Shown here piece after piece: positions 33,623 to 51,121 of a stretch of 64,000 bases of DNA. Numbering within the stretch: the stretch's first letter is position 1; the number at the start of each line of letters is the position of its first letter. The position numbers and the translations under genes are program-made. A model generated the notes under the pieces. That model was given only the letters and a program-made list of their open reading frames with translations, searched no databases and had not been told where the DNA came from. Source of the DNA: Rhodohalobacter sp. 614A (GTDB lineage Bacteria > Bacteroidota > Rhodothermia > Balneolales > Balneolaceae); NCBI RefSeq assembly GCF_021462415.1, contig NZ_JAKEDS010000001.1:1832273-1896272 (forward strand). Direction: 5' to 3'.

Positions 33623-35146
33623 ATGGGTAAATACGCAATTTTTATAGTCTCTGCTCTCATTTTTTCTCTTCTTACGTACTCAAGTGCATTGAGAAATGCT
33701 CTTTTTATGTCTAACACACGGACCGTCGAAAGTCATGGTACGAATCAGGCGTATAATATTGCGCAAAGCGCGATGATGATTGCTGCGAAGGATCTTGTTA
33801 CGAATGGGGAGGGTAGTTCTTTTTATCCACCTGACAGTACATACGCTTATCCCTCAGTGAATGGGTTTCAGAATTGGGGAGGTATGCATGGATCCTATAA
33901 TATATTTACGAGAAACCAGGGAGACACATTATTCACAATCCAATCAACTGGTAGATTTGATGGCAGTACATATATTGTATCACTTGGAATAATAAAGACT
34001 ACTACAGGCGGCGGAGGTGGATTCCCATGGCCTGCTTTTGATGCCGCTATCTATACTGAAGAAGATTTTGACTATAAAAATGGTGTAATTACTGGTGATG
34101 TATATTCTGGGGGAAAATTTTCACTATTATCTAATGGAACTGTTAAAGGAGATGTTTTTGTTCCAAATTCTGATATCTCAGAAGCTGTTTATATGAACAG
34201 TGGCACAATAGAAGGTAGCCTCTATACTAATAACATACATGCTAACGCAGTAGAATATGATAATTGGGGTGCAACAATAATCGGAGACTTAATGGTTGGT
34301 CCAGGTGCTGACCCATCAGAGGTTGCCCCCCCGATTAGTCAATGGCATCCGGGGCATGTGCAGGGTACTCAAGGGGCATTAAGTGAACCTATACCTGAAA
34401 TAAATATGCCTCAACCCGAATTTCCTGAAACACCTTCTACTTCACTTAGCTTACCACCTATCTACGTAAGCGGTAATACAAATCAAACTTTAGATTTAAC
34501 TTCTGGAAGCGCCTCAATCTCTTCCATTGATATTCATAATGATACAAATTTGACAGTGTATGTTGGAGATCAGGACAGAACTCTTGTTGTGAATGATTTC
34601 AATGTAACACAAGGACATTTAAATGTAGTATCTGAGGGTGAAGGACGGTTACAGCTTTTTATTCAGGATAGCTTTACTCTTAATTCAGGAAGTACAATGA
34701 ATCATAATTTAAATCCAGGTGGAAATCAGCGTGATCCATTGAGTTTGTTAATTTCATACGCTGGTTCCGGGGGGATAGAATGGAGTGACAATCAAAGGGT
34801 CAATGCTAATTTATTCATTAAAGAGGCTGATTTTGCAATAGGAGGGAGTACAGATATGAAGGGAAATATTATAAGTACAGGTGAATTTTTAAAATTTTAT
34901 GGAGATTCTGATAATTTCTCTCGACTTATTTATGCTCCGAACGCTCATATTCAAATGGGTAGAGAAACATGGGGTGGAGGTTCACCGACAATCCTGGGAA
35001 GTATCGTTGCAAAAACAATGAATGCCCCGTCAAATATAACTGTTACATATTCTACTGATTTTGAAGATACATTACCGGATTTACCAGGTAGTGGCGGAGG
35101 TGGTGGTGCCGAAACCACAGAATTTGCAATTACCTATTGGAATTAA
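33623..35146 (+). CDS. Large minor-pilin-like (PilX-like) protein with beta-rich C-terminus
   Basis: This 507-residue protein starts MGKYAIFIVSALIFSLLTYSS, a hydrophobic N-terminal segment directly after MG. A helical region (ESHGTNQAYNIAQSAMMIAAKDL) follows, like the extended alpha-1 helix of PilX-type minor pilins. The rest is beta-rich with repeated GDVYSGG/KGDVFVPN/EGSLYTNN-type turns, a Pro-rich stretch (about 250-275), and an end (SRLIYAPNAHIQMG, TILGSIVAKTMN) that resembles DUF7305 of PilX-associated proteins. It is first in a three-gene operon (12 bp to the next). Codon use looks more AT-rich than in flanking genes. The pilin role is inferred from topology and the adjacent pilus genes. 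Confidence 0.7.
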   Translation: MGKYAIFIVSALIFSLLTYSSALRNALFMSNTRTVESHGTNQAYNIAQSAMMIAAKDLVTNGEGSSFYPPDSTYAYPSVNGFQNWGGMHGSYNIFTRNQGDTLFTIQSTGRFDGSTYIVSLGIIKTTTGGGGGFPWPAFDAAIYTEEDFDYKNGVITGDVYSGGKFSLLSNGTVKGDVFVPNSDISEAVYMNSGTIEGSLYTNNIHANAVEYDNWGATIIGDLMVGPGADPSEVAPPISQWHPGHVQGTQGALSEPIPEINMPQPEFPETPSTSLSLPPIYVSGNTNQTLDLTSGSASISSIDIHNDTNLTVYVGDQDRTLVVNDFNVTQGHLNVVSEGEGRLQLFIQDSFTLNSGSTMNHNLNPGGNQRDPLSLLISYAGSGGIEWSDNQRVNANLFIKEADFAIGGSTDMKGNIISTGEFLKFYGDSDNFSRLIYAPNAHIQMGRETWGGGSPTILGSIVAKTMNAPSNITVTYSTDFEDTLPDLPGSGGGGGAETTEFAITYWN

Positions 35147-35158
35147 TGGAGAGGTAAA

Positions 35159-35596
35159 ATGTCAACCGGACAAGTTTTTCTTACTTTAGCATCGCTGGTT
35201 CTTCTGGGATACATCGTGTTAAACATCCATCGAATGTATGCCGGATCTGTTGAAAGCACAGTGGATATGCAAATGACTTCCGATGCGGTAAATTTTGGTC
35301 GTGATTTGAGTGAGGAGATACAGTCTTATGCCTATAAGTATAGTCAGCTGGACGCCGATTTTGCGGATCTGGACGATCCCACGGATCCTAATGCGCGACG
35401 TTCCGATACCTCACAGGTGGGCCAGATTTTTCATGCAACAGTGAACCTTCTTGATAAAGCAGATCTTTTGCCAGATATGGCCGGTAATCAGCCAGGGAAA
35501 ATCGCAGAAATTCGGGTATATGAGGAAGTGGATGACACTCTCCAGTTTAAAGCTGAATTAGTAACTTCAGTCATAGATATGAATTCAGGATCATAA
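35159..35596 (+). CDS. Minor-pilin-like protein, MSTG|QVF start
   Basis: This 145-residue protein begins MSTGQVFLTLASLVLLGYIV, a four-residue leader ending in Gly and then a hydrophobic helix. An amphipathic helix (VESTVDMQMTSDAVNFGRDLSEEIQSYAY, about 31-60) and a small globular domain follow. A strong ribosome-binding site (GGAGAGGT) lies 5 bp before the start. This topology is that of a pseudopilin, with Gly at -1 and Gln at +1 of a possible prepilin-peptidase site. I know no characterised homologue. It is the middle gene of the operon, 1 bp before the next start. Confidence 0.7.
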   Translation: MSTGQVFLTLASLVLLGYIVLNIHRMYAGSVESTVDMQMTSDAVNFGRDLSEEIQSYAYKYSQLDADFADLDDPTDPNARRSDTSQVGQIFHATVNLLDKADLLPDMAGNQPGKIAEIRVYEEVDDTLQFKAELVTSVIDMNSGS

Positions 35597-35597
35597 T

Positions 35598-36152
35598 ATG
35601 GGAGTACAAATTGATTTAATAGTACCACCTATTATCATTGGATTGTTGATTATTCTAATCTTCAGGCTCAATGCTTTTATTATGGAAACATCGGTTGATA
35701 ACCGTCTCAATAATGATATGCAAACGTTTGCTGAAGTTACTTCACGGGTTATACAAGAAGAAGTTAAAAAAGCATCAGAAATCGACAGTCCTGGCGGTGC
35801 TGGTATTCCTGATACAGTACTTGAGTTTATAATAGCTGACCCTTGGGGAGTAAGTCTGGGTGAGAAAGTTACGATTCAAAGATCAGGAAGAAATCTTGAA
35901 GTAATTAAAGAGAACCTTGATACGGCTACTGCGGATACAGTCATTTATCCATCAAGCCTTTCTGTGCTTGAATTTAATATGGAAAGGAAACCTGACACAG
36001 CTCCGCAACCATATTATTTGAATGTAAAAATAGAAACTGAGAGTAATCCAAATCATCATGCCTCTATGAGAGACTTGGATAAAACTGTAAAAGGCTTTGC
36101 AGAAAATGAGATTTATTTGAGAAATGTTCATCGAATTTGTTGCATTCCTTAA
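35598..36152 (+). CDS. Minor-pilin-like protein, MG|VQI start
   Basis: This 184-residue protein begins MGVQIDLIVPPIIIGLLIIL, again MG and a hydrophobic N-terminal helix. An amphipathic helix with DNRLNNDMQTFAEVTSRVIQEEV follows, then a beta-rich globular domain, ending in CCIP. Together with the two preceding genes it has the shape of a minor pilin/pseudopilin cassette. It starts 1 bp after the previous stop, so translation is coupled. Function is inferred from topology and position facing the secretin gene. Confidence 0.7.
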   Translation: MGVQIDLIVPPIIIGLLIILIFRLNAFIMETSVDNRLNNDMQTFAEVTSRVIQEEVKKASEIDSPGGAGIPDTVLEFIIADPWGVSLGEKVTIQRSGRNLEVIKENLDTATADTVIYPSSLSVLEFNMERKPDTAPQPYYLNVKIETESNPNHHASMRDLDKTVKGFAENEIYLRNVHRICCIP

Positions 36153-36493: not shown

Positions 36494-37738
36494 TTAATCG
36501 TTATCCGTTTTTCCTTCAAGGGATTGTTGGCTTTGCATCCGCTGAATTTCTTCCCTGAATTGCTGCCGGGTTTCATCCAGCAAATCGGGTCGCTCTCTGA
36601 AAGGCTGATTGAAACGTTCTTCAAGAGATGGCACCAATTCAACTTTCAGAAGTACAACCAATTCCTGTATGGTTTGCTGGGTAGAGTTAAATCCAAAAAG
36701 GTATCGCAATCCCAAGAACCACCACGGAAGATCCTTCAAAAAGGGAACGCCCCGACGAAGTGTCTCTACATTCGTTTCATATAAACCTGCTATGACTGTA
36801 CTCTCTCCGCTCAGCAAGAGTACTTCGGTCATTGCTTCCTGTTTGTTCACAATTGTACTGACAGGATCAGGTTGAGCGGTACTACGTTCCGTCTCAACAG
36901 TCATGTAGATGAATGGAGTTCCGTCTTCTGAATAGTAGACATTTGGAGTTACATTCAGAATGGTCCCGGTGCTAAAAAATTCATCGGTAATATTTCCTGC
37001 AAAGTCTCGCTGTTTGATTGAAAAATCCTGGCCAACCTGGATGTTACCGGTTCTGCCGTCTAATACCTTAATGGATGGGGATGAGAGTACTTCACCATTT
37101 CCACTCTCTTCAAATGCCCGGAAAAGCGAGGTAATATCCCATCTTCCGGTCGAAAAGATTTCACTCCAGTTTACTTCCACATCAAACATTTCACGCTGTA
37201 CGTCGATGGCAGATGCCGTTTGTACCCGAACTTCGCCGTTTTGAACGGCAGACCAATCGATACCTAACTGGCGAAGCATATCCCGATCTCCCTGGAAGAA
37301 TGTCGCCGAAATTTTTATTTCTCTCGATCTGAAATCAACGTCAATCTCTTCTTCGTCCTCTTCTTCTTCATCCGTTCCCTGTTCCCGATCCAGGGGGATA
37401 TTGCGTATTTCATAATACTTTTCGTACTCGGTAACATATAAATTATTGAACTCGGCAATTCTGCTTAAGGCATCTTCCCAGTGCATTTGCGGAATATCCA
37501 AACCAATTGCTCCCTCAAAACTAGACTGATTAACAAAAATCTTATTTCTGAATTCAATAGAGAGTTCTTCAAGAATACTTAACGCATCTTGAAAGGCGAT
37601 ATCTTTTGAGAGGACCACAAGTTCATCAGGGTTTGTGTATTCTCTGACAGGTAAGCGATCCTGGCCCAAAACCGTTTGAACCCCCATCAAAAGTATCAGT
37701 ATTGAAAAAATAATTGGCTTTTTCATGTTGTTATCCAT
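36494..37738 (-). CDS. Short secretin of the pilus-like system (PilQ/GspD family)
   Basis: This 414-residue protein has a signal peptide (to about 25) and one secretin N-domain of STN/N1 kind (about 40-115). An acidic linker (TDEEEEDEEEIDVD) and a secretin beta-domain (about 138-370) follow. The secretin core shows VLSSPSIKVLDGRTGNIQVG and the late GVPFLKDLPWWFLGLRYLFG, equivalent to the VPxLxxIPxxGxLF signature. It is much shorter than typical PilQ and has no AMIN domains. It would form the outer-membrane port for the pilus. Its ATG abuts the stop of the PilO-PilP-like gene (no gap), so it is coupled and last in the operon. Confidence 0.9.
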   Translation of the reverse strand: MDNNMKKPIIFSILILLMGVQTVLGQDRLPVREYTNPDELVVLSKDIAFQDALSILEELSIEFRNKIFVNQSSFEGAIGLDIPQMHWEDALSRIAEFNNLYVTEYEKYYEIRNIPLDREQGTDEEEEDEEEIDVDFRSREIKISATFFQGDRDMLRQLGIDWSAVQNGEVRVQTASAIDVQREMFDVEVNWSEIFSTGRWDITSLFRAFEESGNGEVLSSPSIKVLDGRTGNIQVGQDFSIKQRDFAGNITDEFFSTGTILNVTPNVYYSEDGTPFIYMTVETERSTAQPDPVSTIVNKQEAMTEVLLLSGESTVIAGLYETNVETLRRGVPFLKDLPWWFLGLRYLFGFNSTQQTIQELVVLLKVELVPSLEERFNQPFRERPDLLDETRQQFREEIQRMQSQQSLEGKTDND

Positions 37739-38611
37739 CTAAGGATTATCAGAATTTTCTTGTGAGAGTGAAAGGGTAACTCTGTCAATAATACCCCCTT
37801 TGTTTAGTTGAAATACAGCTTGTTGGTTTTCGAGATTAATGCTTATAAGTCTGCCCAGGTAAACCCTGTCGCCTACTCTGAGACGTTTTAATACACCGGT
37901 TTGGTCAATAATATGTGCAGTGTTACCGGTTAATGCAATCAGTCGGCTACTTTCAACATTAGTTAAATTTTCAATATTAGGCGGAATGGGGCGAATCAAT
38001 GGATAATAAGGATTGTGCAGGATACTACCCAGCGGAGAAGAGGTTGACAGATCTGCTCTGTAACTGCTCCAGTCTCCTCTTCGATAGTAAGCACTTAAGA
38101 CAACCTGGAATTGAACGATGTTTAATTTCTCCAATTCAGACATATTTGTAAGCTGAACGGAACGGATTTGAATGAGAGGTCGGCTATACTCAATCCTGTA
38201 TAAAAAGTTGGTTAAATTTTCGTAGTTGCCTTCTCCTTCTATATCTGCATTTACAATTCCATGGTCGTCATTTTGTATGGAGTCGGCAAAAGAATAATTT
38301 AGCTCTGTAAAAGAAAGCCCCTGGTTTAATTGTTGCAAATAATCATACAGCGCACTCGAACTGTGAGAGGGAAATAATTCTTTGGGATGATTGATTCGGC
38401 TGTAAATGGCGTCATTGTAGTTAGCCTGCGCCGTGGAGAACTGATTTGCGTAGTTCTGTACTTCCTGGAGTTCATTCTGTTTTTGATTCAGTGACTCCCG
38501 GGTGGTTATAATTTCATCATCAAATCTATTATGTATATACAGCCATCCGCCACCTACCATTATGACGAGGGTCAGTAATAAAATGATTGTATTTCGTATA
38601 CTATATTTCAT
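37739..38611 (-). CDS. PilO-PilP-like fusion, pilus alignment-complex protein
   Basis: This 290-residue protein has a single N-terminal membrane helix (9-25), a coiled coil (about 31-70) and an alpha/beta domain (about 85-175) in the manner of PilO. A C-terminal segment (about 205-285, IRPIPPNIENLTNVESSRLIALTGN then IIDRVTLSLSQ) has the beta-rich look of the PilP/GspC homology domain that contacts the secretin. PilO and PilP are normally separate proteins. Homology is judged by topology, order and pattern, not by alignment. It lies 3 bp after the PilM-PilN-SPOR gene and directly before the secretin. Confidence 0.7.
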   Translation of the reverse strand: MKYSIRNTIILLLTLVIMVGGGWLYIHNRFDDEIITTRESLNQKQNELQEVQNYANQFSTAQANYNDAIYSRINHPKELFPSHSSSALYDYLQQLNQGLSFTELNYSFADSIQNDDHGIVNADIEGEGNYENLTNFLYRIEYSRPLIQIRSVQLTNMSELEKLNIVQFQVVLSAYYRRGDWSSYRADLSTSSPLGSILHNPYYPLIRPIPPNIENLTNVESSRLIALTGNTAHIIDQTGVLKRLRVGDRVYLGRLISINLENQQAVFQLNKGGIIDRVTLSLSQENSDNP

Positions 38612-38614
38612 TGT

Positions 38615-40885
38615 CTATTGTCCCTCCCTGATGCGAATGATAAAATTACGCTCCCTGTACTCATCAGGTAGTTCTTGCACAGCTTCCAAAGCTGAAGAAA
38701 CCGTTTCAAATTGTCCAACACCGATTCGCCACCACGTTCGGTTATCTGCCAAAATTACATCCCATAAGGTAGCTTTATATCCTTCGTCTTTCAGAGTTTC
38801 TTCTTCCTTTTTCGCTCTTTCGCTATCGGTGATGGAGTGCAGGACAATAGTATAGGCTCCTTCTAAAAGCTGTTCTTCGGGCCCCATTAATCCGTAAGAA
38901 CTCGAAGAATTAGTTGGGGATACAATAGCCGGGACTGATATTTCGCGTTGCGGCTCATTTGTGGCTTCAGTATTTGCCTGTACCGGGTTGGAAGTTGGAG
39001 GTTGAGGGGTTTGTGAAGAGGTGTTTCCCTGGGAACCGCCAGACACCGGATCTGGTTGTTCAGCAGTGGCTGGGCTCTGAGTTACATTTCCACTCGATTC
39101 ATCATAAAATTCCTGCTCCGGACCCTCATCGGTTGATGAGTAATTAATCTCGATTTCAGAGCCTTGTTCTGCATCATAATTCCGTTGTGGCAAATCAATG
39201 AGAAACGGTTGCATATCCTGGCGAATATTATTTACCCGCATGGTAAAAGAATATACCGTTTGTCCTCTAATATCCGTTTCAGATACGCTTTGAATATTGC
39301 CATCCGTAAAAAGAGAAGCGAATTCAGGAATCTGTTCACGAGTCAGCGAGAATCCTTCAAATTGCAGACTATTATTATTTGAAGTGCTGAGAGAAGTCAG
39401 CCAGAGATTGGGTATCTCGAAGACGCCTTCGTTTAGCATCCGGATTGTTTCAGACCATTGCTGGCTGTACTGGGCCAGTGAATAAAGGCGTTCATTCTCA
39501 GTTTGTATTTCGGCTGTTTCAGCCATCAGGTCTTCCGTCATGGTGGCCACAGGCCGCAACTCATCAATCTGTGTGTTAAGAAGCCGTATTTCCTGCTGCA
39601 ATTCCGTTAGCTCATTAGAACGGGTTTGGTACAGGTAATTGAGAAAAAGCGGGGTTAATGCTATCAAAATGAGGATGAGAATACCGTGCCATTCCAGCTT
39701 CAGAACCCGTTGTTTTTCACGAATATATTCGGGAAGAAGTGAAAGCTGAGAGAACTCTTTTTCGTGCACACCACTTGCAGCCCATGCCGCGCCAATGGCT
39801 GTCATGTATGGCTGAAGGTAGACGGGAGAATTCAGGATTTCATCCGCATAACTTAAATGTTTGTGATGAGGTGTTAAAAAATCAACCTCAACATCCTCAA
39901 ATTGTGTTGAGAAATATTTCTTGGCTTTTTCACTCATTTTTGCGGAGCGAACCAACAGAAGCCTGTTGATTCTAGGGAGATCACCCTTGTCGATTTCAAA
40001 TAGTATTTTGCTAAATATCGTATTCAAAATATCATTTGAACTTTCCCCTTCGGTGATGATGGGTAAAACATTTACAATCTGTTTGCCCTTCATAAACAGA
40101 ACTCTGCTGGAGGAGGAGCCGATAGCAATCAAGCCCGTAATATCGTCTTTGGCCAGTGTGTAGTTTGTTCGTGCAAGACCCGCCCAAATAGCTTCATCAG
40201 GTAATAACTCGTGGATGAGTACTTTTTTCTTAAGATAAGTTTCAGAGAGCTCAAGAAGGTTGATGAAGTTATACTCATCAGCACTATAGGCAAGAAGGCA
40301 GTTGTTCTCGTCAATCTGTACCCACGAATACTGATCGGGATTGATCTCCTGATCGTACACCGGCTGTAATTTATCCCTGAAGAATTCGTGGCGTTCACTT
40401 TTCTTCATGGAACCCGGGTTCGCGTTTTTTAAAACCTGGAAAGTAGTTCTCCCAAATGGGATATGGGTACCGATTCGAATTTTGTTATTACCATATTGGG
40501 AGAGATAGTCTGCAAGAAGTTGTTCATTATCTCTTTCTGCTTCCGCCTCATCTTCAGTTTTGGTCATATCAAAACTGTCTTCCAGATCGGTAGATTCTTT
40601 TTTCTCAAGGGACGTACCTGATCCGGATCCATCAAAGTCATTGAAATCATCAAAGTCCGATCCACTCTTTGATGAAGGATTAGCAGGGTCTAATTCAAAA
40701 ATCTCTTCATAATCTTCAGAAAAATCGAGATCGCCAATACCGGGTTCATGGACTGTACTGATCGGGTGGGGGAGGTCAATGGTATCTACCTCAAGCAGTT
40801 CCAGCCCATTTTTGACAACTCGCAAACGTGCCATTCGAAGCCGGTTATCTTCGTATGTTAAGCCTATAAATTCTTTTTTAGCCAA
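38615..40885 (-). CDS. PilM-PilN-like fusion with C-terminal SPOR domain
   Basis: This 756-residue protein has a cytoplasmic actin-like region (1-380) with an N-terminal strand pattern (FIGLTYEDNRLRMARL) and the ITGLIAIGSSSSRVLF phosphate-loop-like segment, as in PilM. An acidic insert occupies about 50-120. One membrane helix (401-419) is followed by a coiled coil (421-470) and an alpha/beta domain to about 555, as in PilN. A disordered Ser/Pro/Gln-rich linker (560-670) leads to a SPOR domain (676-752, AYTIVLHSITDSERAKKEEE, WWRIGVGQFETVSSALEAV). SPOR domains bind denuded peptidoglycan. PilM, PilN and SPOR on one chain is unusual. It starts 12 bp after pilT ends. Confidence 0.8.
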   Translation of the reverse strand: MAKKEFIGLTYEDNRLRMARLRVVKNGLELLEVDTIDLPHPISTVHEPGIGDLDFSEDYEEIFELDPANPSSKSGSDFDDFNDFDGSGSGTSLEKKESTDLEDSFDMTKTEDEAEAERDNEQLLADYLSQYGNNKIRIGTHIPFGRTTFQVLKNANPGSMKKSERHEFFRDKLQPVYDQEINPDQYSWVQIDENNCLLAYSADEYNFINLLELSETYLKKKVLIHELLPDEAIWAGLARTNYTLAKDDITGLIAIGSSSSRVLFMKGKQIVNVLPIITEGESSNDILNTIFSKILFEIDKGDLPRINRLLLVRSAKMSEKAKKYFSTQFEDVEVDFLTPHHKHLSYADEILNSPVYLQPYMTAIGAAWAASGVHEKEFSQLSLLPEYIREKQRVLKLEWHGILILILIALTPLFLNYLYQTRSNELTELQQEIRLLNTQIDELRPVATMTEDLMAETAEIQTENERLYSLAQYSQQWSETIRMLNEGVFEIPNLWLTSLSTSNNNSLQFEGFSLTREQIPEFASLFTDGNIQSVSETDIRGQTVYSFTMRVNNIRQDMQPFLIDLPQRNYDAEQGSEIEINYSSTDEGPEQEFYDESSGNVTQSPATAEQPDPVSGGSQGNTSSQTPQPPTSNPVQANTEATNEPQREISVPAIVSPTNSSSSYGLMGPEEQLLEGAYTIVLHSITDSERAKKEEETLKDEGYKATLWDVILADNRTWWRIGVGQFETVSSALEAVQELPDEYRERNFIIRIREGQ

Positions 40886-40897
40886 AGCAGTTATCTT

Positions 40898-42121
40898 TTA
40901 TCTTAAAAGTTGTTTGATGCGAGTTTTATTGTTTGCTTGGTTAATTGCTTCTTCGGGACTAATTATTCGCTGATTTACCAATCGTACCAAATCCTGCTCT
41001 AACGTATGCATGCCGAACTGACCGCCTTCATTCAACATCTGGTAAATCTCTGAGACATTATTATTCTTAATAGCTGCCCGTACAGGCGGAGTGGCAAGAA
41101 GTACTTCTTTTGCTAACACACGAGTTCCTTCAAGAGTATTAATCAATTTCTGGCTAATTACACATGTCAAAACATCGGCAAGACGAACCCGAACCCGTTC
41201 CTGTTCATTTAAAGGAGTTTCACCAATAATTCTGTCAATACTCTCCATAGCCGAAGCCGTATGAAGGGTTGAAAATACTTTGTGTCCTGAGTCAGTCACC
41301 TCAAGTGCATTCCGAATGGCTACATCATCACGAAGTTCTCCAATAACTACAATATCCGGATCCTGTCGCATGGCCTGAACAATTCCATCCCGAAATGACG
41401 CAACATCCTTTCCAACTTCCCTGTGCCGAATGATACACTTTTGTGGTTTATGAACCAACTCTATCGGGGAGGCAACGATAACAATATGCCCTCTGACAGA
41501 TCGGTTATTTGCATCTATGATTGTATCCAGTGTGGTTGATTTACCGGACCCCGTAATACCGGTTACCAACGTTAAACCGTATTTTAAATATTTGAGGCTT
41601 AAATGCCGTGCAACTTCCGGGTGAAGATTCAACCCGGAAAATGGCCTGATTTCATTGTTAATCTGGCGCATGTTCATCGCAAGATTATCCATGTCGAAAT
41701 AGACGGTAGCACGATAACGGCGGTCTCTGTCGAATGAAAGCGAATATGAAAAGTCGATACTGCGATTCATCACAAGATGCTCCATCTGTTCATCACTGAG
41801 CAAATTGAGAATCAATAAATTTGTTTCAAGTAATGTATACTGCTGGCTTTTCTCCCAGGCTTTTTTCGTGCCATGAATACGATACCATACCTTCCCGTTA
41901 CAGCCATCTCCTCCAAGATCAACATCCGATGCTTCAACTTTTTGCATACGGTTTAAATACTCTTCTATATGATTTCTGAGCATTTTTCGCTCATCGGAGG
42001 GCAACTCATATACAAGATTGATCAGATATTGAACTACATCCATTCCCCTAAGCTCTTCGGGAACCACCGATAAGGTTTTGTCAAAATAGGATTTAATATC
42101 CTCTTGTACTGATGTAGCCAT
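40898..42121 (-). CDS. pilT: PilT-family pilus retraction ATPase
   Basis: This 407-residue protein has an N-terminal helical region of about 70 residues not typical of PilT, then the ATPase core. Walker A is GITGSGKST (188-196), Walker B-region RQDPDIVVIGELRD (252-265), and His box TDSGHKVFSTLHT (276-288). The C-terminal PVRAAIKNNNVSEIYQML...GMHTLEQDLVRLV is the PilT AIRNLIRE-type region. The Asp box reads VASPIELVH (217-225) where PilT usually has EDPIE, so the first acidic pair is missing. It would power pilus retraction. It lies 7 bp after the cyclic-nucleotide-binding gene. Confidence 0.88.
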   Translation of the reverse strand: MATSVQEDIKSYFDKTLSVVPEELRGMDVVQYLINLVYELPSDERKMLRNHIEEYLNRMQKVEASDVDLGGDGCNGKVWYRIHGTKKAWEKSQQYTLLETNLLILNLLSDEQMEHLVMNRSIDFSYSLSFDRDRRYRATVYFDMDNLAMNMRQINNEIRPFSGLNLHPEVARHLSLKYLKYGLTLVTGITGSGKSTTLDTIIDANNRSVRGHIVIVASPIELVHKPQKCIIRHREVGKDVASFRDGIVQAMRQDPDIVVIGELRDDVAIRNALEVTDSGHKVFSTLHTASAMESIDRIIGETPLNEQERVRVRLADVLTCVISQKLINTLEGTRVLAKEVLLATPPVRAAIKNNNVSEIYQMLNEGGQFGMHTLEQDLVRLVNQRIISPEEAINQANNKTRIKQLLR

Positions 42122-42128
42122 AACTCCC

Positions 42129-42635
42129 TTAGTTATCCTCGTTAGGTTGATGAATCAATTTCCGTTGAATATACAATAGTTTTTTTCCTGCGTAAATAAG
42201 CTTTTGATTTTGCAGGTCTATTAAATTCATGATAAAGATCTTAAATAAGCGATCAGGCCTTCCTTCAAAGAATTTTAGTACGGTTTCCCGCTCAAAACGT
42301 ATGACTGCTGCGGGCCTTGTAGCGATCAATGTACCTGAGGGAGCCCTGTTTTTAAATAAAAAAGTCTCACCGATAAAATCCCCAGCCTGAAGTTTAGCTA
42401 TATAAACATCTTCTTTAAAAAGAGAAACACTGCCATCTGTAACCAAAAAACCGTCATTTACAAAGAGGTCTTTTTCAGAAACTATGGTATCACCCGCATT
42501 GTATTCTTCAAGTTTTCCACATAATAAAAACTCTCTGAAATCTTCCGGCGGAAATTTACGAAGCAGGAGTGGAGTTACATCCAAAACCTGTTGTACTCGC
42601 TGATGATGTAACAAGTCATTTTTTTGACTATCCAT
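42129..42635 (-). CDS. Stand-alone cyclic-nucleotide-binding domain protein in the pilus operon
   Basis: This 168-residue protein is a cNMP/CRP-type beta-roll: an N-terminal helix, then LEEYNAGDTIVSEKD and a phosphate-binding cassette region GDFIGETFLFKNRAPSGTLIAT with the expected G-E and R-A residues. There is no helix-turn-helix, so it is not a transcription factor. It lies 7 bp upstream of pilT and 372 bp after pilB. I infer that it senses a cyclic nucleotide and adjusts the PilT/PilB motors; nothing in the sequence proves ligand binding. Confidence 0.82.
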   Translation of the reverse strand: MDSQKNDLLHHQRVQQVLDVTPLLLRKFPPEDFREFLLCGKLEEYNAGDTIVSEKDLFVNDGFLVTDGSVSLFKEDVYIAKLQAGDFIGETFLFKNRAPSGTLIATRPAAVIRFERETVLKFFEGRPDRLFKIFIMNLIDLQNQKLIYAGKKLLYIQRKLIHQPNEDN

Positions 42636-46524: not shown

Positions 46525-47877
46525 TTATACTCCATATCCGCCGCTACCGTAATTCGGTTTAATGATAGCCGCTTCAGAAGACACAATCGTGATGTAAATA
46601 AGAGCAAGGAAAATAATTAAATTAATGAAAAGATTAATCCAATTAATCACCGATTCCATTTTATAGGTTGTCTGCTTTTCGTAATAATCGGCTAGCTGGC
46701 CCGAATTTTCTTTCAGAGAACCGGATTCGGCGCCAAGGCGATAACGGCTAAGTGCACTTTTTGGGAATACTCTTGTTTCTTCGAGGGCTTCAATTAGCCC
46801 GGCTCCGTCTTCAAGCATTCTGCGAATGGCTACTTCTTTAATTTGCTTTTCGATATAGGTATTCCGGCAGGCTTCTGCGGCGATTCGTATTACTTCAATA
46901 TTTTGCCCCGAACCACTATAAAGAGTATGAAATACTCGAGAAAAAATTTCAATACTTGTTTTATGTAGCAATTCTCCGATAACAGGGATTTTTAAGAGAA
47001 GACGATCAAGAAGCAAACGCCCCCTTTGGTTTTTCCACATAACGTATAAAACTACAAAAGGAAGGATATGTGCCAGGGTAACAAGAAACCAGTTGTCCTG
47101 AAGCCAGTAGCTGATGGCCAGCGCCTGGGCTGTAAGGGGCGGCAGTTCGATGTCAAATTCAAGAAACATTTCAGCGGTAATAGGAAATACGTATCCAACA
47201 AAAAACAGCAATGTGGCAATCACGGCCAGAAGTGTAAATGTTGGCATAAACAGTGCCCGCCTCAGATTTTTTTTGAAGTCGGCATCCCGCTCCACAAATT
47301 TTGCCGTACTTTCAAATACGCTTGCCATATTACCGCTTGTAGAAGCAACACCCAGCATATAGGCCGCAAACTTTCCAAAGATGTCTTTGTGTTTGCCATA
47401 TACTTCTGCACCTTCCTTACCATCCCGGAGGTCTTTTTGAATGGCCCGTATAACCTCCTTCATAGAACGGTTGGTGGTGTCTTCATAAAGAAGGGTTAAA
47501 ATCTGGTCGTAGGGCAGTTTTTGCCGCAAAAGGTCAGCCGAAAGGCGAATAAAAGTAACTACCTCGTCTTTGGGCACCAAACCCTTAAAATCAAACCATT
47601 TTTTGCGCACGTAGTCTACGCGATAGCCCATTTTTACAAGGGCGCGTTCTACATCTTCAGAGGAATAGGCCTCCTGTTCTCCGTCTATCGGTTTGCTGCC
47701 ATTTCTGCGGACCCGGTACAGAAATAATTTTTTTTCGTCGATGGAGTCTACTTTTAAAGACCGGGTTTGGGCTAATTTATATACTCTCTCTTTTGCGGCC
47801 TTTTTGGTCGGCGCATCAAACTCACGTAAAACGGTTTTACCCTGGGGTGTTTTTCCTAAGAAACGGAATTGAGGCAT
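46525..47877 (-). CDS. pilC: PilC/GspF-family inner-membrane platform protein
   Basis: This 450-residue protein has an N-terminal region (about 1-95) with two short beta-rich repeats (FDAPTKKAAKERVYKLA; SSEDVERALVKMGYRVDYV). Two GspF domains follow (about 105-230 and 305-435). Membrane helices are predicted at 208-233, 263-281 and 413-434. Typical motifs are FIRLSADLLRQKLPYDQIL and GAESGSLKENSGQLADYYE. It would couple PilB/PilT to pilin insertion. It follows the second pilin gene by 48 bp; the TA island lies downstream. Confidence 0.93.
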   Translation of the reverse strand: MPQFRFLGKTPQGKTVLREFDAPTKKAAKERVYKLAQTRSLKVDSIDEKKLFLYRVRRNGSKPIDGEQEAYSSEDVERALVKMGYRVDYVRKKWFDFKGLVPKDEVVTFIRLSADLLRQKLPYDQILTLLYEDTTNRSMKEVIRAIQKDLRDGKEGAEVYGKHKDIFGKFAAYMLGVASTSGNMASVFESTAKFVERDADFKKNLRRALFMPTFTLLAVIATLLFFVGYVFPITAEMFLEFDIELPPLTAQALAISYWLQDNWFLVTLAHILPFVVLYVMWKNQRGRLLLDRLLLKIPVIGELLHKTSIEIFSRVFHTLYSGSGQNIEVIRIAAEACRNTYIEKQIKEVAIRRMLEDGAGLIEALEETRVFPKSALSRYRLGAESGSLKENSGQLADYYEKQTTYKMESVINWINLFINLIIFLALIYITIVSSEAAIIKPNYGSGGYGV

Positions 47878-47925: not shown

Positions 47926-48366
47926 TTAGTTACTTGCACTCTGCTCTGAAATGCTATACATCCACTGATTTGTCTCCGAGTCTCTGGAGACAGTAATTTC
48001 TATATTACCTCCACCTGATCTGGGTTCTCCAGTAATACTTAGACTTGTAGAACTTTCAATATTGACTCTGTATAGTCCGTTTTCATTCTCAACAGATGTG
48101 CTATCAATAGCTAATTCGCCAGGTATATTTAAGCGGTATAATATTGAACCAATTGTTAGATTATTAAAATCACGCCCGGCTCCACTCATCATCAATGGAC
48201 GCTCCCAAAGGGGTTGAATGTTGCTGGCAGCGGTAACCAAGTCTTGACGCATTGCGTCTCTGTTTGCATTATCAGCTCCTATCCCAAGGACGTTAACAGC
48301 AACAATCGTTGATATACCAACGACGATGACTACTAATATCACCAACAATAATTGTTGTTGTCCCAT
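47926..48366 (-). CDS. Pilin-like protein, second paralogue (MG|QQQLLL)
   Basis: This 146-residue protein begins MGQQQLLLVILVVIVVGIST, a hydrophobic helix right after MG. It is followed by NANRDAMRQDLVTAASNIQPLW and a globular domain. It is a clear paralogue of the upstream gene: shared are the N-terminal helix, N(R/I)DAxRQDL, W(E/T)RPxxM, GAxRDFxNxT, RLNIPGxLAxDS and VENEN. The likely mature start is Gln after a two-residue leader. It lies 48 bp before pilC and after the intrinsic terminator that follows the first pilin. I infer a pilus subunit expressed at a lower level than its neighbour. Confidence 0.8.
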   Translation of the reverse strand: MGQQQLLLVILVVIVVGISTIVAVNVLGIGADNANRDAMRQDLVTAASNIQPLWERPLMMSGAGRDFNNLTIGSILYRLNIPGELAIDSTSVENENGLYRVNIESSTSLSITGEPRSGGGNIEITVSRDSETNQWMYSISEQSASN

Positions 48367-48385
48367 GTGATTAAGTTATATGCTT

Positions 48386-48424
48386 AAAAAAAAAAGAATT
48401 GAGGCAATAATATTATTGCCTCAA
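48386..48424 (-). terminator. Intrinsic terminator between the two pilin paralogues
   Basis: A perfect 13-bp inverted repeat (TTGAGGCAATAAT / ATTATTGCCTCAA, 48399-48424) is followed on the minus strand by TTC and a run of ten T residues (48386-48395). It is placed to stop most transcripts after the first pilin gene and allow partial read-through into the second pilin and pilC. Confidence 0.92.
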
Positions 48425-48452
48425 TTAAATTAAACAAATTATTTAAACTCTG

Positions 48453-48884
48453 CTATTGCTCTGTTATAGTAACTTCCCATTCACCTGTAGTTGCATTTCG
48501 TTGAACAGTTGCTGTTAAGGTAATGTTTGGGTTACTCTCAGGAATTCCATCGATTTCTATTGCATCTGCTGCTGTAGCCTCAGCAGTGTATGTTGCATTT
48601 TCATTTTCAACATTTGAGCTATCTGCTGCTAAAACTCCAGGAATGTTAAGTCGAGCCAAAATTGTATTGTCAGTAACATTCTGAAAATCTCTATTTGCAC
48701 CATTCATTAATGTTGGTCTTGTCCAAATAGCTTGTGCTTGAACTGAAGCAGCCATTAGATCCTGTCGAACAGCGTCAATATTCGCTTGGTCGGCAGCTGT
48801 TCCGAAGATATTGATAGCAACCACAGTGGCGATACCCACAATAATGGTTACCAGAATTACGAGTAAGAGTTGTTGTTGACCCAT
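48453..48884 (-). CDS. Pilin-like protein, probable major subunit (MG|QQQLLL)
   Basis: This 143-residue protein begins MGQQQLLLVILVTIIVGIAT, followed by ADQANIDAVRQDLMAASVQAQ (extended alpha-1 helix) and a small globular domain ending WEVTITEQ. It has Gly at a possible -1 position, Gln at +1 and no Glu5, unlike classical FTLIE pilins. A strong AAAGGTGA ribosome-binding site lies 7 bp before the ATG, and an intrinsic terminator follows. This suggests abundant separate expression, as expected for a major pilin. I recall similar MGQQQLLL hypotheticals in other FCB bacteria but cannot check. Confidence 0.82.
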   Translation of the reverse strand: MGQQQLLLVILVTIIVGIATVVAINIFGTAADQANIDAVRQDLMAASVQAQAIWTRPTLMNGANRDFQNVTDNTILARLNIPGVLAADSSNVENENATYTAEATAADAIEIDGIPESNPNITLTATVQRNATTGEWEVTITEQ

Positions 48885-48957
48885 TTTAATTCACCTTTTG
48901 GTTATTTATGGTTTAGATCGTTATTTGTTAAAATTTAAAAATGTTTCGAAGAAGTGA

Positions 48958-49861: not shown

Positions 49862-51121
49862 ATGACACAGACGATTACTGACACCAAACAAAGTGTTCAA
49901 AAAACCATTCTGCCAAACGGCCTTAAAATAGTTACCGAACATATAGATAGTATTAAAAGTATTTCTGCCGGTATCTGGGTAAAAACCGGGAGCCGTAATG
50001 AACCGGACGCCAAAGCGGGCATCACTCACTTTTTGGAGCATATGCTTTTTAAAGGCACCGAAAACCGTTCAGCGTTTGAAATTGCCCAAAGTATGGAGTC
50101 GGTGGGTGGTTATCTTAACGCTTTTACTTCCACAGAGTACACATGTTATTATGCGCGGTGCCTGGACAGCAAACTGGAAGATGCGATAGACGTACTGAGT
50201 GATATGGTTCGCCACTCCACATTTCCGGAAGAGGAAATGCAGAAGGAGAAGAACGTTGTGCTGGAAGAGATGAAAATGTATAAGGACAGCCCTGACGACG
50301 TCATCCTTGAAGAATTCAGTAATCAGATTTTTCCGGATCATCCTATTGGCAGACCGGTTTTAGGGTTTGAGGATACGGTAGTGTCGTTTACCAGTGAGAG
50401 TTTATTTGATTATATAGAAGAGAGATATCAGCCGGATAATTTGCTGGTAGCTGTGGCCGGAAATGTAGATCATCAGGAAGTAGTGCATGCAGTTACCCGG
50501 TTGCTGGATCACGAGATGTCTAAGCCTACCGTGAATGAAGAACAGCCGTTACCTCCGTATGAAGTTACCCAAAAAGAAATTACCAAGCCGATTGAACAGG
50601 CTCATATGATTCTGGGCCGGCGCGCCCTGAATTACGATCATCCCGATAAATACCTATTGCTGCTGGCCAATACGCTTTTAGGAGGAGGGATGAGTTCCCG
50701 GCTTCATCAAAACATTCGCGAAAAATACGGGTACTGCTATTCTATTGGACCATTCAACCAGTCTTATCTCGATTCCGGGCTTTTTGGAGTGTATATCGGC
50801 ACCGATAAAGATTATGTGCCCCATGTGCGTGAACTGATCAATAAAGAATTTGAACGGATGCAGAACGAAAAAGTGGGTGATAAAGAATTACAGGAAGCGA
50901 AAGCACATCTAAAAGGTAAGCTTCTTCTGTCACAGGAAAATACCAGTAACCGGATGACCCGGATGGCAAAAAGTGAAATCTACTTTAATCGTTATGTAAC
51001 ACTCGATGAACTTGTAGAGAATATCGATGAAGTGAATTCCGGTGATCTGCAAAACTTTTCGAAAGACTTTTTTGATCCTTCGATGTATTCAGAAATTTTG
51101 CTTGTACCTGAGAAAAAATAA
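49862..51121 (+). CDS. M16 family zinc metallopeptidase (processing-peptidase-like)
   Basis: This 419-residue protein has the inverted zinc motif HFLEH (56-60) followed by the distal Glu region in EEMQKEKNVVLEEMKMYKDSPDD. It also has the C-terminal-domain motif GGGMSSRLHQNIREKYGYCYSIGPF. Size and motifs match the short bacterial M16B peptidases related to mitochondrial processing peptidase. No signal peptide is seen, so it is probably cytoplasmic. It stands alone. Confidence 0.94.
   Translation: MTQTITDTKQSVQKTILPNGLKIVTEHIDSIKSISAGIWVKTGSRNEPDAKAGITHFLEHMLFKGTENRSAFEIAQSMESVGGYLNAFTSTEYTCYYARCLDSKLEDAIDVLSDMVRHSTFPEEEMQKEKNVVLEEMKMYKDSPDDVILEEFSNQIFPDHPIGRPVLGFEDTVVSFTSESLFDYIEERYQPDNLLVAVAGNVDHQEVVHAVTRLLDHEMSKPTVNEEQPLPPYEVTQKEITKPIEQAHMILGRRALNYDHPDKYLLLLANTLLGGGMSSRLHQNIREKYGYCYSIGPFNQSYLDSGLFGVYIGTDKDYVPHVRELINKEFERMQNEKVGDKELQEAKAHLKGKLLLSQENTSNRMTRMAKSEIYFNRYVTLDELVENIDEVNSGDLQNFSKDFFDPSMYSEILLVPEKK

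Follow-up and report, generated by a model that had tools for sequence, protein, structure and literature searches.

Two adjacent genes of Rhodohalobacter sp. 614A very likely encode subunits of a type IV pilus-type filament that is made without a cleavable leader, probably the major pilin and a close paralogue. These pilins probably need no prepilin peptidase and lose only their initial Met. Read from sequence, translation starts only three residues before the mature +1 position, the genome has no detectable prepilin peptidase, and the locus combines a set of pilus machinery, three candidate minor pilins with short N-termini and an arrangement of genes that is conserved in several FCB phyla. 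Removal of the leader by a prepilin peptidase is regarded as one of the steps that define type IV pili, type II secretion systems and archaella, and to our knowledge the other well-characterised forms of the type IV pilus machine all use this enzyme. A 2014 census recorded it in every phylum with such machines except the Nanoarchaeota (PMC4471445). We found no precedent for leaderless pilins, peptidase-free pili or the peptide MGQQQLLL in the open-access literature searched. A step that was thought to be obligatory, the trimming of the leader, may be dispensable.

Pilin genes and their start sites

All coordinates of the Rhodohalobacter genes are positions within the window, the whole 64,000-nt stretch of DNA that was analysed (first letter = 1). 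The pilin genes and the signals ahead of them are:

48453..48884, minus strand: pilin subunit 1, probable major pilin, 143 aa, MGQQQLLLVILVTIIVG; N-terminal helix 3-55 and four-stranded sheet
47926..48366, minus strand: pilin subunit 2, 146 aa, paralogue of subunit 1 (52% identity over its length)
48891..48896, minus strand: Shine-Dalgarno-like AGGTGA ahead of the subunit 1 gene, 7-12 nt before the ATG
48376..48378, minus strand: in-frame TAA, 3 codons 5' of the subunit 2 ATG, which closes the frame and bars a longer leader

The original prediction described two paralogues with an identical start, and both are real minus-strand ORFs that share the N-terminus MGQQQLLLVILV. The TGA within the AGGTGA (48891-48893) doubles as an in-frame stop 2 codons 5' of the subunit 1 ATG. 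Since in-frame stops lie 2 and 3 codons upstream, there is no room for a classical leader on either pilin, and a longer true N-terminus, which had been named beforehand as a finding that would speak against the prediction, is excluded for both. The upstream stops, the Shine-Dalgarno signal and conservation together fix the start codon, and both proteins lack the hydrophilic, Gly-terminated leader of 6-26 residues that is expected of a type IV pilin (PMC4471445). Their hydrophobic stretch occupies residues 6-24, within the predicted helix 3-55, and thus resembles the approximately 21 hydrophobic residues that run into a long helix in type IV pilins. The Glu at mature position 5 is missing, as had been claimed; Leu8 stands at the equivalent aligned place, or Gln5 if residues are numbered from the start.

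The type IV pilus gene cluster

The two pilin genes come first in a complete cluster for a type IV pilus, with PilC, PilB, a PilT-family ATPase, PilM/N, PilO and PilQ. The expectation that their products are pilin-like is borne out. The window thus encodes the assembly ATPase, platform, secretin and PilT-family retraction ATPase of a type IV filament. The remaining genes of the cluster are:

46525..47877, minus strand: PilC/GspF inner-membrane platform, 450 aa; the sole T2SSF protein found in the genome
43008..44792, minus strand: PilB/GspE extension ATPase, 594 aa; scores higher as PilB than as GspE
42129..42635, minus strand: small cyclic-nucleotide-binding-domain protein; a conserved cluster member in Neomarinimicrobiota and most Balneolota
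40898..42121, minus strand: PilT/PilU-family ATPase, probable retraction motor; TIGR01420, 308.8 bits, just below the curated cut-off of 319
38615..40885, minus strand: PilM/PilN-like protein with a C-terminal SPOR domain
37739..38611, minus strand: PilO/GspM-like protein
36494..37738, minus strand: PilQ-family secretin, outer-membrane pore; best score as PilQ
33623..35146, plus strand: PilX-like minor-pilin candidate, MGKYAIFIV..., without leader; DUF7305 C-terminal domain
35159..35596, plus strand: minor-pilin candidate (V-like), MSTGQVFLTLASL..., without leader
35598..36152, plus strand: minor-pilin candidate (W-like), MGVQIDLIVPPIII..., without leader

The genome yielded two T2SSF matches, which are the two halves of one PilC (46525-47877), and no second PilC-type protein was found by this search. 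The cyclic-nucleotide-binding protein is encoded beside the PilT gene and may contribute to motor control. A ParE toxin and addiction-module antitoxin pair (PF05016 and PF09720; 45366-45886, minus strand) splits pilC from pilB. These two genes are adjacent in relatives, and nothing in the loci of the relatives matches the toxin-antitoxin pair.

The order pilin(s)-PilC-PilB-(cNMP)-PilT-PilM/N-PilO-PilQ recurs across phyla, in most contigs of sufficient length; contigs of Balneolota/Rhodothermota, KSB1, Neomarinimicrobiota, Calditrichota and Ignavibacteria all carry relatives in the same gene order. The DUF7305 domain recurs in the PilX-like gene of relatives. Minor-pilin-like genes also lie between PilB and PilT in several phyla, and their hydrophobic stretch begins within about the first five residues. 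One lineage, represented by L142 and L143, has two different minor-pilin-like gene sets near the cluster.

Some components are shared with type II secretion systems (T2SS), which are close relatives of type IV pili. This kinship, and the fact that the PilO/GspM-like and secretin genes match T2SS and pilus families alike, would fit a filament that is likewise peptidase-independent but forms a short periplasmic pseudopilus, acting as a secretion piston rather than a surface filament. We consider this unlikely: a GspM-like match was obtained, but the secretin is nearest to PilQ, the extension ATPase scores above GspE as PilB, and the cluster includes a PilT-family ATPase of the kind typical of retractile pili.

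Conservation of the family across relatives

Relatives were collected from one genome per species, and 360 related stretches were found. Because the scan was partly seeded with MGQQQLLL, the N-terminus was then re-checked with a profile. The best 80 of these 360 stretches belong to Balneolota and to records labelled KSB1, Neomarinimicrobiota, Ignavibacteria and Calditrichota, along with a few oddly labelled contigs that are probably mis-binned. The cultured Gracilimonas mengyeensis DSM 21985 (L024) and Fodinibius roseus DSM 21986 (L056) are among the carriers of such loci. A search of 72,556 plasmid records returned no match.

The MGQQQ start occurs in 128 of the 138 family ORFs recovered, and the remaining ORFs include MAQQQ, MANKE, MGSQQ and MGIQQ starts as well as over-extended reading frames. 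MANKE and MAQQQ are rare variants of the second pilin (L126:2011-2376 and L156:2852-3286), and Gly2 is therefore not strictly needed in the paralogues. Upstream of the 128 MGQQQ relatives an in-frame stop is found at a median of 4 codons before the start, and Shine-Dalgarno-like words precede 76 of them, compared with 7.7 expected from shuffles. The Gly codons (GGA, GGT, GGC and GGG) and Gln codons (CAA and CAG) vary synonymously while the residues stay constant. On this record of sequences, the MGQQQ start of the family is not due to chance.

In a 65-row alignment Gly2, Gln4, Gln5, Leu6, Leu7, Gly17 and Gly62 are invariant, and Gln3 is nearly so. The conserved downstream words proposed earlier stand in part: N35-x-D37-A38, D42, P57, G62, F67 and N94-x-N96 are conserved family-wide, but RLNIPGxLAxDS is confined to the closest relatives. 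No curated Pfam or NCBIfam model covers the MGQQQ pilins, in agreement with the suggestion that they define a family of their own.

Predicted fold and homology to classical pilins

Homology of the family to known pilins appears modest at the sequence level and restricted to helix 1. The Pfam N_methyl model gave no match to the window pilins and nothing over the cut-off in the genome as a whole, and no classical pilin was seen elsewhere in it. A profile of the family matched Geobacter PilA among the PDB sequences (E = 0.0039), and hhalign matched it to classical pilins that occur in the same class (P = 1.1e-5, Prob 82), both in helix 1 only. The two alignments agree on an offset of 3, with residue 9 of the family aligned to mature residue 6, and the ORF therefore starts three residues ahead of the mature pilin N-terminus. 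In this register Gln4 corresponds to +1, Gln3 to -1, Leu8 to Glu5, Gly17 to Gly14 and Asn25 to Pro22.

The AlphaFold2 model of the window pilin consists of a single helix (residues 3-55) and four strands (mean pLDDT 96.9), and that of a KSB1 relative has a pLDDT of 92.9. Foldseek returned no pilin among the matches to the window model. For the KSB1 relative, searched against 350,542 PDB chains, the top match was the Neisseria minor pilin PilV (5v23; probability 0.97, TMt 0.57, E 0.04); a competence pilin from Thermus ranked 17th. The models thus suggest that the family matches the helix plus beta-sheet headgroup fold of type IV pilins. The long hydrophobic N-terminal helix, the equivalent of Gly14, the small C-terminal beta sheet and the adjoining PilC/PilB/PilT/PilMNO/PilQ genes are all shared with type IVa pilins such as Geobacter PilA and those of Neisseria and Thermus. 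In contrast to these, the Rhodohalobacter proteins have no 6-26-residue leader, no Phe1 and no Glu5, Asn replaces Pro22, and no prepilin peptidase was detected in the genome.

Two readings in which the proteins have no place in a filament were weighed against these observations. Weak MacB_PCD matches occur in 40 of the 65 members (best E = 7e-6, the first member scoring below the curated cut-off) and could indicate membrane-anchored, MacB-like periplasmic proteins without a pilus role. This identity was rejected as highly improbable, since the matches are weak and no neighbour fits: conserved neighbours include neither an ABC ATPase nor a MacA partner, the genes are tightly linked to PilC/PilB, and the predicted long helix with a small sheet and the profile matches to pilins also speak against it. 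It is just as hard to credit that signal peptidase I removes the hydrophobic stretch as a class I signal peptide and leaves a soluble periplasmic protein. The proteins do begin with a hydrophobic stretch followed by small residues, but they lack a positive n-region, and the stretch is their most conserved part and belongs to one modelled helix that continues to residue 55. Such conservation of individual residues from phylum to phylum is unusual for a signal peptide.

Distribution of the prepilin peptidase

Peptidase_A24 gave no match over the cut-off in the Rhodohalobacter genome, which was also negative with a profile whose seed peptidases came from this class and from related phyla. As a positive control for this search, 12 of 14 control genomes were positive. 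Across the 165 genomes of the class, the pilin family was matched in 117 and Peptidase_A24 exceeded the cut-off in 16. The peptidase was missing over the cut-off from 104 of the 117 pilin-bearing genomes; the other 13 do encode one, but together with a system of its own. Its presence is unrelated to that of the MGQQQ pilin (13 of 117 genomes with the pilin and 3 of 48 without; p = 0.40).

What the peptidase does follow is a second, classical type of PilC. The two types were separated by score, at approximately 87-120 bits for classical PilC and 60-78 bits for that of the MGQQQ system. Of the 17 class genomes with a classical PilC, 14 have the peptidase, compared with 2 of the 148 without (Fisher p = 1.1e-15), and none was found in the 102 genomes that have MGQQQ pilins and lack the classical PilC, six of these 102 being single-contig assemblies (G150, G229, G115, G072, G217 and G045). 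The same pattern is seen in 21 genomes from other phyla, where the peptidase occurs in 13 of 14 with classical PilC and 2 of 7 without (p = 0.006); one exception, G033, encodes it beside a Flp-type pilin. In most of the peptidase loci that we read in the class, the gene directly alongside encodes a classical prepilin (DGFSLTELLIVLAIIGIL), and in some there is a PilX-like gene whose product bears a leader. A minority of class genomes, in a scattered pattern, carry this second pilin/PilD system of classical type, which has a separate PilC (L130-L138, e.g. L132:1378-2445). These systems share with the MGQQQ pilins the helix 1 match and a PilX-like partner, but differ in their normal leaders, adjoining Peptidase_A24 gene and own PilC.

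The original prediction considered processing after Gly2, which would remove a two-residue leader and leave Gln3 at +1. By extension, the prepilin peptidase or another protease could make this cut, and Gln3 could cyclise to pyroglutamate, removing the charge that Glu5 normally neutralises. A two-residue leader with Gln at +1 is an interpretation and not an observation. It draws on the near invariance of Gly2 and Gln3 and on the classical rule of cleavage after Gly (PMC4471445). However, the peptidase tracks the second, classical PilC and not the MGQQQ pilins, and cleavage after Gly with Gln at +1 is therefore unsupported. The profile alignment sets the classical cut between Gln3 and Gln4, the shortest classical leader has 6 residues (PMC4471445), and the MANKE and MAQQQ members have no Gly to cut after. 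Moreover, only pilus genes recur widely around the pilins in our survey of conserved neighbours, and no protease does. The earlier reading was right about unusual pilins of a family of their own but is probably wrong about the cut, which we regard as quite unlikely. The apparent absence of the peptidase comes from homology searches, and cleavage behind Gly2 could be the work of a protease unrelated to it. Since Gly2 and Gln3 still precede the classical +1, the chain may also be trimmed by one or two residues. An M16 peptidase encoded in the window (49862-51121) was weighed as a candidate for the processing step but discarded, as it is found near the pilins in only two other loci.

The resemblance to archaeal pilins that was drawn from Gln at +1 looks superficial. 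Many archaeal pilins lack a bacterial-type Glu5 (PMC4471445), as do the proteins described here, and EppA substrates such as Methanococcus EpdE also have Gln near the N-terminus. Those pilins are made with a signal peptide, 12 residues long in EpdE, and depend on the dedicated prepilin peptidase EppA (PMC4390842), whereas the Rhodohalobacter proteins have no leader or signal peptide to be cut before Gln+1 and the genome no detected Peptidase_A24. The MSHA (MSH) pilus cluster also has no prepilin peptidase gene, but genomes with MSH invariably encode a peptidase that belongs to a different system (PMC6668835). MSH can borrow that enzyme; the Rhodohalobacter genome has none to borrow.

Proposed assembly of leaderless pilins

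We hypothesize that these leaderless pilins enter the filament directly. Under the established rules of methionine aminopeptidase, Met would be removed before Gly2, and the chain would then begin GQQQ. The hydrophobic helix would act as a signal anchor and insert with its N-terminus on the cytoplasmic side, an orientation we predict because the N-terminus is uncharged and acidic residues follow the hydrophobic stretch. PilC and PilB could then pull the helix straight into the filament with no cleavage step, after which the filament would exit via the secretin, with the PilT-family ATPase as its retraction motor. Classical pilins mutated at Glu5 form no homopolymers (PMC4471445). The MGQQQ system must therefore set the register of its subunits otherwise, and the invariant, uncharged QQQ is the obvious candidate to substitute for the classical Phe1/Glu5 contact. 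The filament might serve in adhesion, surface movement or DNA uptake. The genome also encodes ComEC, which says little about function.

Looking beyond this locus, we think it probable that these genes mark an FCB-wide branch within the type IV filament superfamily in which all pilins, major and minor, are leaderless and neither prepilin peptidase nor N-methylation is used. In such a branch the mature N-terminus would be given by the start codon, and an invariant, uncharged GQQQ would take over from the Phe1/Glu5 chemistry. A natural system of this kind would make the purpose of the leader directly testable, whether this is membrane insertion, the blocking of early assembly or merely the exposure of +1 for Glu5. 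The findings suggest that surveys requiring a classical pilin signature could miss leaderless systems, for which MGQQQLLL beside PilC offers an annotation signature.

The PilC of this cluster is itself unusual, at approximately 450 aa compared with 375-430 aa in classical systems, and the sequence of its N-terminal region looks like a cytoplasmic segment that has been duplicated. These features could be an adaptation to leaderless pilins.
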